From a virus, in the IMG/VR virus record IMGVR_UViG_3300047445_000134, positions 1 to 26,080 of that record: 26,080 bases of DNA, one strand, 5' to 3'. The position numbers and the translations under genes are program-made. The notes beneath the pieces are model-generated. The model worked only from the letters and a program-made list of their open reading frames with translations. It did no database searches and was not told the DNA's origin. Position 1 is the stretch's first letter. Every line of letters begins with the position of its first letter. Below, piece after piece: positions 1 through 23,965 of this stretch.

Positions 1-1
1 G

Positions 2-205
2 ATGGATGCACTCGCGCGAGCCGAGGCCCGGGACCCGCAGGTTCCAGGCGACATTCGGTACTGGTACGAGTACCGACTGAAGGCCGAGCGCGATCTTCAA
101 GCGCTCGGAATCCATCTGGCTGCCCCCACTGGAGTAAATAGAGAATTCAACAAGGATTCTCATGTCAGCACTTCTCCAGTCCGTCGTTCAAGACCTGATC
201 AATGA
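2..205 (+). CDS. C-terminal part of an uncharacterised protein (5' end outside window)
   Basis: The frame is open from the window's left edge and ends at TGA 203-205. The translation through about residue 45 looks like real protein (charged, with RYWYEYRLKAERDLQALGIH), and its codons favour G/C in third position as in neighbouring genes. The Met at position 2 is probably internal, because nothing upstream is visible to judge a start. If real, the frame runs 44 nt into the next gene, and its last 20 or so residues overlap the promoter-like site and start of that gene, which is unusual. I recognise no domain. A shorter real gene ending elsewhere, or a gene on the other strand, cannot be excluded. 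Confidence 0.4.
   Translation: MDALARAEARDPQVPGDIRYWYEYRLKAERDLQALGIHLAAPTGVNREFNKDSHVSTSPVRRSRPDQ
133..142 (+). promoter_or_regulatory. Putative T4-type late promoter (TAAATA)
   Basis: AGTAAATAGA at this site matches the core of the T4 late promoter (TATAAATA). It ends 21 nt before the ATG of the 152-aa gene at 162, with an AAGGA ribosome site in between. Equivalent TAAATAG sites lie 21-24 nt upstream of three other operons in this window. Confidence 0.55.
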
Positions 206-16111: not shown

Positions 16112-16600
16112 ATGACCGAAACAACAACCAAGCCCAAGACAGTTAAGCCAGCCAAGAAAGAGCGTTCAAAGACCACCCAAGGTCATTACGTAAAGAACGC
16201 CGAGCTGCTCGCTGAATTCCATATCTGCAAAGCCAAGGGCGAGCTTTCCCCCCTGATGGCGAAGTACCTGATGATGATCGCTGAACGGTACTCGTACCAT
16301 CAGTGGTTCGCAGGATACTCTTTCCGTGAAGACATGGTTTGCACCGCTGTGGTGAATCTGTGTGCGAACTGGCATAAGTTCAATCCCGAGAAGTCCGATA
16401 ATCCGTTCGCTTACTACACGACGGCCTGTTATCGCTCTTTCCTATCGTACCTTGACGCTGAAAAGAAAGAGCGTACGATTCGTGATGAACTCCTGATTGA
16501 AGCTGGCGCGAACCCGTCGTTCAACTATCAGGCTCGGCACGGTACTTCGGGTAAGACTTCTGATGATACCGCATTCTCTGGCGGTGGTGGAGACGATTGA
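16112..16600 (+). CDS. gp55: Late-transcription sigma factor, T4 gp55-like
   Basis: 162 aa. It follows the layout of T4 gp55: a basic N-terminus, then YVKNAELLAEF (T4: YVNNKELLQAI), a helix ending in MIAERYSYHQWFAGYSFREDMV, CANWHKFNPEKSDNPFAYYTTACYRSFLSYL (T4: [24 protein letters not shown]) and a KKERTIRDE helix. This is a reduced sigma70-region-2 protein that should bind host RNA polymerase and read the TAAATA late promoters. It acts in T4 with the sliding clamp. The C-terminal tail is Gly/Asp-rich (GGGGDD), possibly a co-activator contact site. Its leader hairpin is shared with gp47. Length is close to T4 gp55 (185 aa). Confidence 0.85.
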   Translation: MTETTTKPKTVKPAKKERSKTTQGHYVKNAELLAEFHICKAKGELSPLMAKYLMMIAERYSYHQWFAGYSFREDMVCTAVVNLCANWHKFNPEKSDNPFAYYTTACYRSFLSYLDAEKKERTIRDELLIEAGANPSFNYQARHGTSGKTSDDTAFSGGGGDD

Positions 16601-18749: not shown

Positions 18750-19289
18750 ATGACTTGCATCGTTGGTATTGAATTCAATGACAAGGTTCTGATGGGTGGC
18801 GACATCCAAGGGACCGGGTACAACAACAAGGTTGTGCACACGCAACCGAAGGTGTTCAACAAGAAGGGCGTTCTGTTCGGCTTCACGACCAGCTATCGCT
18901 TTGGCCAGCTCCTCGAGCACGGTCTTGCCGATCCAGTCGTTCCAGAAGACGACAATGAGATCTACCGTTGGCTGATCACTGTCCTGATTCCGGACATCAA
19001 GAAAGCGCTGAAGACCGGCGACTACGAAAAGGGTGGCACGTGTCTGATCGGCGTGAAGGGTCAGCTCTGGGAACTGCAAGACGACTTCAGTGTCTTGCGC
19101 TCTGTGAAGGGTTACACCGCTTGCGGCTCTGGCTATGAGTACGCAATGGGCTCGATGTTCACCACTGCAGGTCAACGCCCAAGCCTTAGCACCCAGCAAG
19201 AGTACACGAACGCAGTGAAAGCTGCGATCCTCACGGCCGGTACATTCAGCCCGTCCGTTGGTACCGACTCCGTCGTCATTTCGAACTAA
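18750..19289 (+). CDS. Proteasome-beta/HslV-like Ntn hydrolase
   Basis: 179 aa. It begins MTCIVGIEFNDKVLMGGD, the pattern of HslV and bacterial/phage proteasome-like proteins. Removal of Met1 would expose Thr as the nucleophile. Counting from that Thr, Asp is residue 17 and Lys (in QPKVF) is residue 33, the three catalytic positions of HslV. GVLFGFTTSYRFGQLL and a later CGSGYEYAMGSMF (like the GSG.YA.GA of HslV) continue the fold. It is probably a peptidase acting in a ring, but no ATPase partner is seen here. It sits between the gp47 and gp46 genes, behind AAGGA. The possibility of an inactive or regulatory copy cannot be excluded. Confidence 0.85.
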   Translation: MTCIVGIEFNDKVLMGGDIQGTGYNNKVVHTQPKVFNKKGVLFGFTTSYRFGQLLEHGLADPVVPEDDNEIYRWLITVLIPDIKKALKTGDYEKGGTCLIGVKGQLWELQDDFSVLRSVKGYTACGSGYEYAMGSMFTTAGQRPSLSTQQEYTNAVKAAILTAGTFSPSVGTDSVVISN

Positions 19290-19292
19290 ACA

Positions 19293-21032
19293 ATGAGCTC
19301 CTCCCTTTATTTCCGCGAACTGTCGATTCGGAACTTCCTCTCGTTCGGCCAGAATGAAACGATCATCGATCTGTCTGAGGCCGGTACGATTGAAGTCATT
19401 GGACAGAACTTGGACAAGGGCGGCTCGAACGGTTCAGGCAAGACGACGATCATCAACGCGATCTGCTACGCGTTGTACAACAAGCCGTTCGACAACATCT
19501 CGCTTCAGCGGCTGATCAACAGCACGAACGCGACGAAGAACACCTTGATGGAAGTGAAGCTTTCGTTCGAACGTGCTGGTGACGAGTACGAGATCACTCG
19601 TGTTCGTGGTGAGCATTACACGATCCGTCTGACGAAGAACGGTGAAGACATCACGCCAGGTAAGGGTGTTGCCGAGTGCGATGCCTTGATCGAGAGCGTG
19701 ATCGGTATCAGCTACGAGTTGTTCACGAAGACGATCATCTTCTCGGGGAACGCGCAAGCTTTCCTCGAGCTGCCAGTCGCTCAGCAACGTCTGCAGATCG
19801 AAGAGCTGTTCAACATCACGTTGCTCTCTGAGAAGGCGAAGGTCCTTCGTGAGAACATCAAGGTCACTGAAGGCGACATCAAGGTCCAGAAGGCCGTCGT
19901 GAAGCAGCAAGAAGTTGCTGTCGAGCTGTACAAGAAGCACATCACCGAAGCCGAGCAGCGAATCACTAAGTGGGATCAGACTCGTCAGAAGGACATCGCC
20001 GAGATTGAGAACACTCTGGCAGTGGTCGGTACTGTTGACTTCGAACTGGAGCAGCTCTTGCACGACGAGCGCTCGACGCTCGTTCAAGAAGGCGCGTACC
20101 TGGCTGCGAAGCTTGCTCCTGCCCGCAAGGATAATCAACAGCTTACTGCGGCTGTTGAGAAGCTTCTCGGCGAACAGGCTCATCTGGCTGACGCGACCTG
20201 CCCGTACTGTGCACAGAGTTTCGCCGATGCTCCAGCACGACTGGCAAAGATCGAAGACGAAATTGATGTGAAGGGTAAGCTCCTGATCCAGGTCGAGGCT
20301 GATGTTCAATCACTGACCGAGAAGGCACGTGAACAGCAAGCGCGTCTGAAGGAAGTCGAAGCCGGTATTCAGCACTCGAATCTGAACGAGCTCCTGTCTG
20401 CCCGTGAGAATGCATCTGTCCTTCGCACGAAGATGAACGATCTGAAGAACGCCGTGAATCCTCACGTCGAAGCTCTGGAACGCCTGCTTGCCGAAGACTG
20501 CAAGGAAGCCGATCATGCAAAGGTCGATGCCCTGCACAAGCGGCTCGAGCACATGCAGTTCCTGATGAAGCTCTTGACGAACAAGGACTCGTTCCTCCGT
20601 CGCCGAATCATCAACAAGACGATTCCGTTCCTGAACGATCGAATCAACGGGTACACCGCTCAACTCGGGCTGCCACACATCGTTCGATTCGATGCTGACA
20701 TGAGCTGCACGGTCTCTGAGTTCGGCCGTGAGCTGGACTTCGGTAATCTTTCAGCTGGTGAAAAGAAGCGAGTGAACGTCGGGCTGGCTCTTGCCTTCCG
20801 AGACGTGCTGCATCACATGCACGCGAAGTCGAATCTGATGCTGGTCGATGAACTCGACGGTCAGCTCGATGGTGGCGGTATTGATGCGGTGATTCGAATC
20901 ATCAAGGACAAAGCCCGAGACGAAGAGATGTCCGTGTTCATTATCTCGCACCACCCGAACGTGTCTGGCCGACTGGATCGAACGCTTATCGTTTCGAAAC
21001 AACATGGCTTCAGTACGATCAGCGACGGCTAA
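19293..21032 (+). CDS. gp46: Recombination ATPase subunit, T4 gp46/SbcC/Rad50-like
   Basis: 579 aa, close to T4 gp46 (560). In order: N-terminal FRELSIRNFLSFG, Walker A GSNGSGKT (44-51), Q-loop region GNAQAFLELP (152-161), a coiled coil from about 185 to 295, the zinc hook CPYC (303-306), a second coiled coil to about 430, the ABC signature NLSAGEKKR (485-493), Walker B LMLVDELDGQLD (515-526) and the switch ISHH. ATP binding closes the dimer and controls gp47 nuclease activity. It starts 3 nt after the hydrolase stop, with no clear ribosome site, so translation coupling is likely. The Asp-Glu of Walker B is intact, so it should be active. Confidence 0.95.
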   Translation: MSSSLYFRELSIRNFLSFGQNETIIDLSEAGTIEVIGQNLDKGGSNGSGKTTIINAICYALYNKPFDNISLQRLINSTNATKNTLMEVKLSFERAGDEYEITRVRGEHYTIRLTKNGEDITPGKGVAECDALIESVIGISYELFTKTIIFSGNAQAFLELPVAQQRLQIEELFNITLLSEKAKVLRENIKVTEGDIKVQKAVVKQQEVAVELYKKHITEAEQRITKWDQTRQKDIAEIENTLAVVGTVDFELEQLLHDERSTLVQEGAYLAAKLAPARKDNQQLTAAVEKLLGEQAHLADATCPYCAQSFADAPARLAKIEDEIDVKGKLLIQVEADVQSLTEKAREQQARLKEVEAGIQHSNLNELLSARENASVLRTKMNDLKNAVNPHVEALERLLAEDCKEADHAKVDALHKRLEHMQFLMKLLTNKDSFLRRRIINKTIPFLNDRINGYTAQLGLPHIVRFDADMSCTVSEFGRELDFGNLSAGEKKRVNVGLALAFRDVLHHMHAKSNLMLVDELDGQLDGGGIDAVIRIIKDKARDEEMSVFIISHHPNVSGRLDRTLIVSKQHGFSTISDG

Positions 21033-21037
21033 ATAGC
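21028..21037 (+). promoter_or_regulatory. Putative late promoter of the tagged operon at 21058
   Basis: GCTAAATAGC ends 22 nt before the ATG at 21058 and overlaps the gp46 stop codon. It sits in the inverted repeat ACGGCTA-AA-TAGCCGT. A -10-like TACAAT (21043-21048) lies just after it and could be a second start. Confidence 0.55.
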
Positions 21038-21057: not shown

Positions 21058-21885
21058 ATGAAACTCTCCGAAATCAAAGCCCCAAAGAAGGACGAAGTCG
21101 TTCGCGACTCACAAGGTCGACCACTGCGTGGTCTCGCCAAGGAACGTGCTCTGCAGCAGCGGAAACTCGACAAGAACTTCAAGGACTACGATATCAAGGA
21201 TCATCGGATCGGGGTCGCAAAGGTCGTGAAGGAAGCAGCAATCAAGGAACTGGACAAAATTGCTGCCGAGCGCTTCGGCAGCTTTGGGTTCGCTGATCTA
21301 GAAGAAGACCAGGCAGCGCGACTGATCTACATCGAACGCGCGAACAAAATCGCTGAAAAGGAGTTTGGTGAGTTCGGTCTTATGTCATGCAACGCCACTG
21401 AAATTGCGCAGATCATTAACGCCAATCCTGCGCTGATTAAGAAGGTGAACGAAGAAGAGCTCGAATCAAAGACTGCAGAGGACCTGTGGTCGGAGAACTC
21501 GAGCTCTGCCTCGAAGTACATCAGCACGGCGACTTATCAGGTCCGTCCAATCAAGGACAGCAAGCCAGTGAAGTACGAAGCTTTCTCTGTGATCAGCACG
21601 ACGCGGAAGCCGTACGGCACGTTCACAGCTGACGAGCTGAACGCAGCCCTGAAGCCGATCCGTCCGAATCAGACTCCTGACGCTGAAGGATTCACGACGT
21701 ACATCGACCCTGTGAAGGTCGACGCGTTCCAGTACTCTGGTGACCCAGTGAAGGTTGATCTCGGCAAGGGTGATATTCAGACAGCCGACGATAGCGACTA
21801 CATTGTTCGCACTGTTGACGGGAACAACTTCGTGTACCGCATTGAAGAAGCCGGTGACTTTGAAGCTGGACTGAAGAAAGCCTGA
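21058..21885 (+). CDS. Uncharacterised MKLxEI-tagged protein
   Basis: 275 aa, starting MKLSEIKAPKKDEV. It has a lysine-rich helical N-terminal half (about residues 10-150, with RPLRGLAKERALQQRKLDKNF) and a mixed beta C-terminal half (YQVRPIKDSKPVKYEAFSVI, TFTADELNAALKPI, DYIVRTVDGNNFVYRIEEAG). The start lies behind TGATC and the late-type TAAATA. The junction CTGATCATGAAACT equals those at 21888 and, on the minus strand, 9894. I recognise no domain. Late-type control and the shared tag suggest a virion protein; that is inference. Confidence 0.85.
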   Translation: MKLSEIKAPKKDEVVRDSQGRPLRGLAKERALQQRKLDKNFKDYDIKDHRIGVAKVVKEAAIKELDKIAAERFGSFGFADLEEDQAARLIYIERANKIAEKEFGEFGLMSCNATEIAQIINANPALIKKVNEEELESKTAEDLWSENSSSASKYISTATYQVRPIKDSKPVKYEAFSVISTTRKPYGTFTADELNAALKPIRPNQTPDAEGFTTYIDPVKVDAFQYSGDPVKVDLGKGDIQTADDSDYIVRTVDGNNFVYRIEEAGDFEAGLKKA

Positions 21886-21887
21886 TC

Positions 21888-22664
21888 ATGAAACTTGCCG
21901 ATCTATTCGAGGCAGTCGTCTCCGATTCTGCCCAAGCACTCAAACTTCTTGGTCTCGCATCCGATGCGTCCATGACCGACGTGAAGGCTTCATACCGCAA
22001 GCTTGCGCAAAAGCTTCATCCTGACAAGAATGACGGCAGCGCTGAAGCTACCGAGAAGATGAAGATGGTCAATGCGGCGAATGACTTCCTACTGAAGCAT
22101 GGGTTGTCAAAGGCGACAGCTTCAGCCCAGCCTCCTGCAGAGGATGTGAAGTTCACCAAGGAAGGCATCAAAGAGGTCGACGATAAGCTAGAAGTGATTC
22201 TTAAGAATCCGGCATGGTTCGACAAGAAGGGCCGCTCAAAGTACATTGGACCAGTTCTTTTTGCACGTGAGCGCCTCAAGGTTGCCGAACAGCTGATCGA
22301 AATTCTCCCAGCGTACGAAGCTGTCATGAAGAAGATCGTTGCCTCTTGGAAGAATCGTTTCGAGAAGCCAGAACCTTTCAAGGCTGCAGCGAAGGAATTT
22401 GAAGAGTTCTTCAAAGAACATAAGCCAAATGATCTTCAAGCCCTTCTTAATCGCATTGCAAAGAGACAGCGCACAGCAGGGTGCACCTACCTTAAGGTGG
22501 AAACCCCACTTCGTAACAAGGTCAGCGACGAGCTCAGCGAGATCCTGAGTTCTCGTGAGAAGATCAAGGAAGCGGTAGTTGCAGTGGACAGAACTCCTGA
22601 GCAACGTGAACGTGCTGCGAAGGCTTCTGCTCGAATGAAAGCTCAGTGGGGTTCGACTTTTTAA
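21888..22664 (+). CDS. MKLxDLFE-tagged J-domain (DnaJ-like) protein
   Basis: 258 aa. After the tag (MKLADLFE) comes a J-domain at about residues 16-72: QALKLLGLASDASMTDVKASYRKLAQKLHPDKNDG, with HPD at residues 44-46 intact, so it should stimulate an Hsp70 (host DnaK). There is no glycine-rich or zinc-finger region. Residues about 90-258 are helical and lysine-rich, with no recognised domain (KYIGPVLFARERLKVAEQLIE, KAAAKEFEEFFKEHKPNDLQALLNRIAKRQ). It starts 3 nt after the preceding stop, behind TGATC. It could redirect host chaperones to phage assembly, or be injected if the tag marks virion cargo. Confidence 0.88.
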   Translation: MKLADLFEAVVSDSAQALKLLGLASDASMTDVKASYRKLAQKLHPDKNDGSAEATEKMKMVNAANDFLLKHGLSKATASAQPPAEDVKFTKEGIKEVDDKLEVILKNPAWFDKKGRSKYIGPVLFARERLKVAEQLIEILPAYEAVMKKIVASWKNRFEKPEPFKAAAKEFEEFFKEHKPNDLQALLNRIAKRQRTAGCTYLKVETPLRNKVSDELSEILSSREKIKEAVVAVDRTPEQRERAAKASARMKAQWGSTF

Positions 22665-23539
22665 TGAAGCTCTCTGAAATCAAACTCTTTGAGGCGCCAC
22701 TCGCTGACGTCTCGTACCACAAAGCTGCAACGACTGGATCGTTCTCCGCGAGCGACTTGAAGCTGATCAAGAAGTACATGGAGAGCGGTCACTACAAGGA
22801 CAAGCTCAAGGGCCTGCCTTTTGATCTGTACTTGTACATCGTAGACAACGGTGACGAGGGTGCAGCAGCGGCAGACAGCTATCCTGAGGGTGAAGTCATT
22901 CCGTCGATCTGGAAAGATCAGACGCGCAAGCTTTATCACAAGACCGACAGAGAGCGGATTGAGGGTGGCTATGAGCCTGATCCTGACGGTCTGGACTTCA
23001 GCGTTCAGCCATTCCCAGCGATTTTCGCGGCTGTTCGTGAACGAATTCAGAAGAATCCGAACAGCGTGCACTTCTTGCTTGGCGACAACTACTCAGATGA
23101 GCACCAGATGGGTGTGACACCGTGGATCGTCGCGCACAGACTCTGCCATTGCTATTCTGTTGGTGGCGGTGTGAGCGTCCCGCCTGAGTTGATCGCAGCG
23201 TACAAGAAGAAGAAGGGCATTCCAGCAGGCGAAGCGTTCACTGCAGGCTGGAAGGCTCTGCAAGCTTCACTGACATTCAAGAGCGCAAAGTCGAACAAGC
23301 TTATTGAGTCTGAAACCTCCGTCGAAATGAACGCGCAGTTCCTTGTCACTGGAGATATTCCACTTGATCTTCCTGCGTACAGCGCGAAACTGAAGGAGCT
23401 CAGCGACGTCAGTGGTTTCACTCTGACCGATGATGAAATCGTTCAGCAGACTGAGATCTGGAACAATGAAGTTAGCGAGTTCAAGGATCGCTGCAAGAAG
23501 GCCGCTGAACGTATTCGCGGCAAAGTGTTCTACGTGTAA
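22664..23539 (+). CDS. Uncharacterised MKLxEI/LFE-tagged protein with TPWIVAHR motif
   Basis: 291 aa, starting MKLSEIKLFEAPLADVSYH from ATG 22664, which overlaps the preceding stop by 1 nt (TAATG). The central block VHFLLGDNYSDEHQMGVTPWIVAHRLCHCY (residues about 135-164) is familiar from uncharacterised phage proteins. The H-R-x-C-H arrangement could bind metal, but there is no proven motif. LFEAPL gives an L-x-E site at residues 8-10. The C-terminal 80 residues are an acidic, helical region ending RIRGKVFYV. Function unknown. The hairpin for the next gene starts at its stop codon. Confidence 0.85.
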   Translation: MKLSEIKLFEAPLADVSYHKAATTGSFSASDLKLIKKYMESGHYKDKLKGLPFDLYLYIVDNGDEGAAAADSYPEGEVIPSIWKDQTRKLYHKTDRERIEGGYEPDPDGLDFSVQPFPAIFAAVRERIQKNPNSVHFLLGDNYSDEHQMGVTPWIVAHRLCHCYSVGGGVSVPPELIAAYKKKKGIPAGEAFTAGWKALQASLTFKSAKSNKLIESETSVEMNAQFLVTGDIPLDLPAYSAKLKELSDVSGFTLTDDEIVQQTEIWNNEVSEFKDRCKKAAERIRGKVFYV

Positions 23540-23589
23540 GCTCCGGGGGCTGATAAATACAGGATGCAAAGTCCTGTATCCCCGAAGCT
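23539..23589 (+). promoter_or_regulatory. Long hairpin enclosing the start of the endonuclease VII gene
   Basis: An inner 8-bp stem (ATACAGGA/TCCTGTAT, 7-nt loop) is extended by AGCTCCGGGG paired with CCCCGAAGCT (9 of 10) after an 8-nt bulge. The ATG (23564-23566) lies at the top of the inner stem. Read-through transcripts from upstream should therefore have the start masked. Confidence 0.6.
23552..23561 (+). promoter_or_regulatory. TAAATA late-promoter-like site inside the hairpin
   Basis: GATAAATACA ends 4 nt before the ATG. If used like T4 late promoters, RNA would begin at about 23565, without the 5' arm of the hairpin. Confidence 0.4.
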
Positions 23590-23965
23590 CAAATCCAAAG
23601 ACGTGAAGAAGACACGCCTTGCACTCCTCGAGTCGCAAGGTTTCAAGTGTGCTATCTGTCAACTCCCATGTGATGAAGAGCAAGCCGTTCTAGATCACTG
23701 CCACAAAGGCGGTTGGATCAGAGCGGTCCTGCACCGTGCCTGCAACGCAGCCGAAGGTAAAGTGATGAACTCCCTTCGTCGGTACGGTATCAAGGATCCA
23801 CAGAACTTCTTGCGTGAATTGATGAAGTACCATGAGGTTCATGCTACTAATCAGACCGGGTTGATACACCCGCTGCACTTCACTCCTGAAGAGAAGCTCG
23901 AGCGCTCGAAGGCGAAAGCCAAGAAAGCTCGGGCGAAAGCCAAAGCTGCTAAGTCAGCACAATAA
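23564..23965 (+). CDS. gp49: Recombination endonuclease VII, T4 gp49-like
   Basis: 133 aa. The His-Me finger family is shown by FKCAICQLPC (C29, C32), LDHCHKGGWIRAVLHRACNAAEGK (the catalytic DH.H and the second pair of zinc ligands, here H and C instead of C and C), and a helical C-terminus. Endonuclease VII cuts branched DNA (Holliday junctions) and mismatches before packaging. It is shorter than T4 gp49 (157 aa) and ends in a lysine/alanine tail. The start is uncertain: ATG 23564 has only AGG next to it and lies in a hairpin; GTG 23603 is possible and would keep all motifs. Confidence 0.88.
   Translation: MQSPVSPKLKSKDVKKTRLALLESQGFKCAICQLPCDEEQAVLDHCHKGGWIRAVLHRACNAAEGKVMNSLRRYGIKDPQNFLRELMKYHEVHATNQTGLIHPLHFTPEEKLERSKAKAKKARAKAKAAKSAQ

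Follow-up and report, generated by a model that had tools for sequence, protein, structure and literature searches.

The window, i.e. the whole stretch of 26,080 nucleotides that was analysed computationally, comes from a T4-related myovirus, as seen from its homologues of gp55, gp47, gp46, baseplate proteins and endonuclease VII, the last of which is a DNA-junction-cutting enzyme (Table 1). The same phage is represented by a 234,547-bp contig (G001) of almost identical sequence, in which a coordinate equals the window position + 61134; window positions 1-103 have no match in this otherwise near-identical contig and are likely to be the end of an assembly or local variation. A gene assigned to phrog_1040 ('peptidase HslV family') lies at 18750-19289, between the homologues of gp47 and gp46. 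With the endonuclease VII of the window as the query, tblastn recovers T4 gp49 at E 9e-8, and the Cys and Asp-His residues are conserved in the protein alignment, which places the protein in the T4 gp49 family. The co-directional gene located 5' of it would be the source of read-through RNA into the endonuclease VII gene, and RNA from the second TAAATA, further upstream, would likewise read through to it.

Table 1. Features of the window that bear on expression of the endonuclease VII gene (window coordinates)
Feature	Position	Strand	Remarks
Late sigma factor gene, gp55 family	16112..16600	+	phrog_234, E 6.7e-31
gp47 homologue	17688		
gp46 homologue	19293		
Baseplate proteins			on the other strand
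Second TAAATA, ordinary leader spacing	21030..21035	+	precedes 275-aa gene at 21058
Gene of unknown function, co-directional, 5' of endonuclease VII	22646..23539	+	297 aa, or ~290 aa from an internal ATG
Outer stem, 5' arm	~23539..23548	+	not conserved; absent in most orthologs
Late-promoter core TAAATA, gp55-type (predicted)	23554..23559	+	in 5' part of hairpin
Inner stem, 5' arm (ATACAGGA)	23557..23564	+	conserved
Endonuclease VII gene, T4 gp49 family	23564..23965	+	133 aa; phrog_423, E 5.8e-38
Endonuclease VII ATG and predicted late transcription start	23564..23566	+	invariant KLK; T4 promoter rule
Inner stem, 3' arm (TCCTGTAT)	23572..23579	+	conserved
Outer stem, 3' arm	23580..23589	+	not conserved; absent in most orthologs

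Several proteins of this phage share an N-terminal peptide (such as MKLSEIK, MKLADLFEA, MKLIELFEA or MKLLDLFES), from which the original prediction spoke of a 'tagged operon'. Their genes are found at window 21058-23539 and at G001 63598-64080, 115936-116814 and 124322-125350; the protein at window position 21888 carries a DnaJ domain, and similar N-termini occur in relatives (MHTFKQFLAEA; MKTSFRQFLAES in XacN1). The shared N-terminus resembles MKTYQEFIAEA, the peptide by which internal head proteins of T4 are targeted to the capsid, and if this likeness is right, the proteins that start in this way may be packaged and injected.

Residues K8-L9-K10, encoded just downstream of ATG 23564, are invariant in the protein alignment of 11 endonuclease VII orthologs. 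As these residues are encoded upstream of GTG 23603, that codon lies inside the conserved protein and is rejected as the start of the full-length product; the case that GTG 23603 is the only start, which the original prediction had named as speaking against it, does not apply.

In the 234-kb genome of G001, TAAATA is the most enriched hexamer in the intergenic DNA upstream of genes (26 occurrences versus 1.65 expected), where in most cases an ATG with a Shine-Dalgarno site follows at a distance of 24-41 nt, measured from the T of the hexamer. TAAATA is also the core of the T4 late promoters, and together with the presence of a gp55 gene in the same phage, this enrichment points to late promoters of the gp55 type, of which the gp55-family protein is the expected recogniser. 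The 7-mer ATAAATA was rejected as the promoter consensus, with 4 matches in the 234-kb genome versus 4 for the reversed-pattern controls. In 31 of the 32 confident promoters of the window phage the base before the core is G or C, while it is A at the 23554 site, which gives this site a low matrix score (rank 57). By its sequence alone it would therefore be a weak promoter candidate, and it is the relatives that settle its status. An A before TAAATA is common in sister genomes, and the preference for G or C in the window phage versus the acceptance of A in its sisters suggests that gp55 specificity has drifted within the family. A core preceded by a non-T4 base is also found in phage Aeh1, of which the late promoter is CTAAATA, whereas a leaderless class has not been reported there (PMC1524935).

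A number of other predicted late RNAs of the phage (at G001 4201, 13191, 16745, 20238, 61269, 140716 and 216363) seem to start with a hairpin directly after TAAATA, for example TAAATA GTCCTCAGAGGGCC...GCAGAGGAC. At ordinary, leadered late promoters, too, more RNA pairs span the predicted start of the late RNA than in shuffles (mean 10.0 versus 7.8 pairs; 243 promoters in ten genomes), as if many late genes lose 5' arms by late initiation. In addition, a terminator-like repeat (GAGGGACCCTAGGGTCCCTC, with variants) recurs at the ends of gene blocks, at G001 ~93, 61785, 89745 and 219370.

The original prediction put ATG 23564 in an extended hairpin, with an inner stem of 8 bp, an outer stem in which 9 of 10 pairs form, and TAAATA in the 5' part. 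Folding bears this out: positions 23537-23594 reach -24.8 kcal/mol, compared to -11.9 +/- 2.6 for shuffles (z -5.0, with 0 of 200 shuffles as stable), and equally good folds occur in only 0.26% of the 54-nt windows genome-wide. The position of TAAATA is also kept in relatives. An RNA that starts at 23564 lacks the 5' arm, so that the fold is gone: the RNA cut at this position reaches -5.5 kcal/mol, no better than shuffles, compared to -28.9 kcal/mol for the read-through form. The structure is not an intrinsic terminator, as the stem is followed by CTCAAATCC and no T run, and a permissive Rfam search of 23400-23800 returned only sub-threshold chance matches (snoRNAs and one miRNA).

A search with the gp46 protein led to 58 related loci, in many of which endonuclease VII is encoded near gp46, usually between the same two neighbours, and a further search brought the family orthologs to 13 distinct ones in all. 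In 12 of these 13, TAAATA (TACATA in one) is found 4-6 nt before the start codon; with the number of nucleotides between core and start written as N4, N5 and so on, the spacing is N4 in ten, N5 in one and N6 in one, the ordinary distance of N23 being restricted to one AT-rich phage. The start codon lies within a covarying hairpin in 11 of the 12 short-spacing orthologs. The four bases before the ATG vary (CAGG, TGGG, GGGG, CGGG, AGGG, GGAG etc.), each pairing with its own downstream stretch, and in all 5000 permutations with swapped downstream halves the own pairs did better. When the sequences are aligned on the stem, 93% of the cells pair; both partners have changed in three of the six pairs, and one pair is seen as C-G, G-C, A-U and U-A. 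This alignment was fitted to the stem, and the swap test is therefore the fairer control. In one ortholog (L044), which starts with GTG, another stem is formed and its loop contains TAAATA. The original prediction had proposed a test for the same fold in relatives; the inner stem is kept there, with compensatory changes, while the outer stem (with one mismatch) is particular to the window phage. Among endonuclease VII loci further removed from it (e.g. L111-L178, mostly with 30-50% identity) almost none has the element, and it is therefore confined to the family of the window phage; a similar-looking 8-bp hairpin near the start at locus L003 was discarded, being no better than shuffles (z -1.1).

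The short spacing extends beyond endonuclease VII. Across ten family genomes, the TAAATA-to-ATG spacing is bimodal, with 30 cases at N4, 16 at N5, 13 spread over the eight bins N6-N13, and 243 at N21-N32 (ATGs taken from the ORFs of a simple ORF caller, with orthologs counted separately). The 18 one-base variants of TAAATA have 0-7 cases each at N4-N5, amounting to 54 of 17942 sites compared to 46 of 884 for TAAATA itself (Fisher p ~2e-34, again with orthologs counted separately). The same count yields one case at N4-N5 and no short peak in T4, and two cases and no short-spacing peak in the related named phage PA5oct. The cultured jumbo phage XacN1 has 10 cases at N4-N5 and 6 at N6, with a peak at N5-N6, a few of these cases being duplicates because of its long terminal repeats; when six of its starts were compared with the depositors' annotation, five agreed. 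Among orthologs the short spacing is kept in endonuclease VII (5/5), a PAAR protein (3/3), a 177-aa protein (3/3), a phrog_14168 nuclease with a signal peptide (3/3), a hydrolase-like protein (4/5) and a ligase-like protein of ~770 aa (4/6), and several homing endonucleases also belong to the short-spacing genes.

A Shine-Dalgarno-like tetramer at -16 to -5 is present in 2 of the 46 short-spacing genes, compared to 138 of the 243 ordinary late genes, a scarcity that is partly by construction, because the promoter core fills the place of the Shine-Dalgarno site. TAAATA does not serve here as an upstream stop codon plus spacer, since its TAA ends a called ORF at only 2 of the 46 sites. Pairing across the start averages 9.2 in this class, versus 7.6 in shuffles, and is strong in ~9 of 46; a hairpin is therefore not a general feature of these genes, and masking would be an addition in some of them rather than a trait of the class. 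The hydrolase-like gene (~190 aa, with the motif YIHGLNSS) has the short spacing at G001 130850, G003 217586, G010 78395 and G002 133817, and a start hairpin in three of these four.

What can be read from the DNA itself is a promoter motif, a fixed short spacing, a covarying hairpin, a conserved start and a class of genes with such spacing. The T4 late promoter consensus spans -13 to -6 (PMC1524935), and with the core 4-6 nt before the ATG, +1 would come to lie no more than two bases from the A of this codon. Applied strictly, the -6 rule would put +1 at 23565, i.e. on the T of the ATG at N4 sites and one base late, so that a shift of one base to the A would be needed. With +1 at or near this A, late RNA would be translated from the conserved ATG in a leaderless, or nearly leaderless, manner. 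The original prediction, which expected a 5' end at 23560-23570, overlooked that such an end would remove the whole leader.

The explanation that fits best, and that we consider probable, is a late promoter at the AUG, a leaderless late mRNA and a read-through RNA masked by the hairpin. TAAATA 23554-23559 would act as a gp55-type late promoter from which RNA starts at, or within about two bases of, A23564, and the resulting endonuclease VII mRNA would be translated through recognition of its 5'-terminal AUG. In the read-through RNA the same AUG would be internal, with the promoter core in the place of the Shine-Dalgarno site and no usable Shine-Dalgarno site available. The downstream flank of the promoter would form the 5' arm of the hairpin, in which NNGG before the ATG pairs with CCNN a few codons into the gene, and the AUG buried in this way would be translated poorly. 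The promoter would set both the timing of transcription and the usability of the start codon, which is probably silent early and active late. What the mask would keep apart is promoter-proximal and read-through RNA, rather than strictly late and early RNA, because RNA from the late promoter at 21030 would read through as well. The exact RNA 5' end, the leaderless translation and the repression of the read-through RNA by the hairpin are inferred.

Among the alternatives, the one that survives best, although rather unlikely, accepts a leaderless late mRNA and takes the hairpin not as a mask, but as a protein site in DNA or RNA (for example an operator, or a cruciform through which endonuclease VII limits its own gene) or as an element for mRNA processing or stability. 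The position of the dyad, where a branched-DNA nuclease gene begins, would be in line with this, as would the lack of a strong hairpin in most short-spacing genes, and an internal AUG without a Shine-Dalgarno site should already be weak in the read-through RNA, making a mask perhaps unnecessary. However, the stem can vary in sequence provided that pairing is kept, and it always encloses the start codon, which agrees better with pairing than with a base-specific operator. Moreover, cruciform extrusion is unlikely for stems of 4-7 bp and loops of 4-11 nt, and unrelated genes also have strong hairpins with this geometry (G001:130850, G003:217586 and G002:252845, the first of which reads TAAATAGGGG-ATG-GCCCC).

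Considerably less probable is a mechanism exactly like that of T4 gene 49, in which a leadered late RNA would have its Shine-Dalgarno site and start codon freed from the hairpin. Barth et al. (1988), as cited in PMC2988022 and PMC3014915, reportedly dealt with the regulation of T4 gene 49 (endonuclease VII) through its leader. In favour of such a mechanism are the same gene, the same type of promoter and a hairpin over the start region, and T4 gene 49 is indeed listed among the genes with an inhibitory structure at the start (PMC3014915). In the T4 sequence AATAAATA lies in the 5' arm, and the ATG and a purine-rich AAGGTAAGGG tract lie in the 3' arm. Both genes thus have a late promoter in the 5' arm of a start-covering hairpin, which would be lost from the late RNA and would mask the read-through RNA. 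However, in T4 a distance of 29 nt separates the end of the core from the ATG, and the late RNA retains some two dozen nucleotides of leader, with the start region in the 3' arm, whereas in the window the ATG follows the core by 4 nt and coincides with the predicted +1, leaving no leader from a T4-type start, and the start codon lies in the loop or upper stem. There is no Shine-Dalgarno site at a usable distance, the only later in-frame start is the internal GTG 23603, and the short spacing is itself conserved across orthologs. The original prediction, that the start is masked in read-through RNA and that a late promoter lies in the stem, as in T4 gene 49, is therefore partly supported: its logic seems right in outline and agrees with the pairing, the spacing and the relatives, but the equation with T4 gene 49 fails. 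Likewise, its expectation that the arrangement is kept although the sequences have diverged holds among the relatives, with their compensatory changes, and not for the arrangement of T4 gene 49. Finally, that TAAATA 23554 is a chance match and unused as a promoter, the hairpin merely lowering translation of endonuclease VII from the operon RNA, would agree with the low matrix score and the preceding A, but is very improbable, because 12 of 13 orthologs, whose leaders have otherwise diverged, have TAAATA or TACATA 4-6 nt ahead of the start codon, and because the spacing is bimodal genome-wide.

A leaderless late mRNA with a hairpin-masked read-through form, as preferred here, has parallels, besides T4 gene 49, in T4 e (lysozyme), soc, I-TevI and segB and in Aeh1 mobE, of which the late RNA also omits the 5' arm of an inhibitory hairpin, and several of which are homing endonucleases, as are several of the short-spacing genes (PMC2988022, PMC3014915). 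According to reviews, masking in gene 49, e, soc and I-TevI is of the leadered kind, and in all the cases described the masked element is a Shine-Dalgarno site and the late RNAs have leaders, in which they differ from the genes considered here (PMC3014915, PMC2988022). Leaderless phage mRNAs, with the AUG at the RNA 5' end and no Shine-Dalgarno site, are known from lambda cI and others, and recognition of an AUG at or near the 5' end is a general property of 70S ribosomes (PMC9031893); that phage transcripts are often leaderless is also remarked in passing in a paper on the jumbo phage AR9 (PMC5312081). Leaderless mRNAs such as that of lambda cI, however, have no tie to a T4-type late sigma factor or to a mask in an alternative, longer transcript, and regulation by upstream RNA is expected to be unlikely for leaderless mRNAs (PMC9031893). 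No paper was found that links T4-type late promoters to leaderless mRNAs, which is weak evidence of novelty, since subscription papers were mostly outside the literature covered.

Endonuclease VII thus appears to be one case of a leaderless class of late genes that is apparently undescribed and that T4 does not seem to have. For this T4-related jumbo phage family and XacN1 as a whole, the balance tips slightly towards a class in which +1 falls on the AUG and the codon is translatable only in RNA from the late promoter, with a covarying hairpin that would tighten the switch in some genes (endonuclease VII, the hydrolase-like gene and some homing endonucleases). The hairpin-masked late genes of T4 are a textbook case of timing by promoter choice, in which, in the cases described, a ribosome-binding site is freed. 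Here, many genes apparently achieve the same timing without any leader, both in one cultured phage and in a large clade of jumbo phages from the environment. Gene finders that rely on Shine-Dalgarno sites will misplace such short-spacing starts. If the proposed mechanism is true, these phages would make regular use of leaderless translation in their late expression, and it would become testable whether they use or alter the preference of the host for leaderless mRNAs late in infection.
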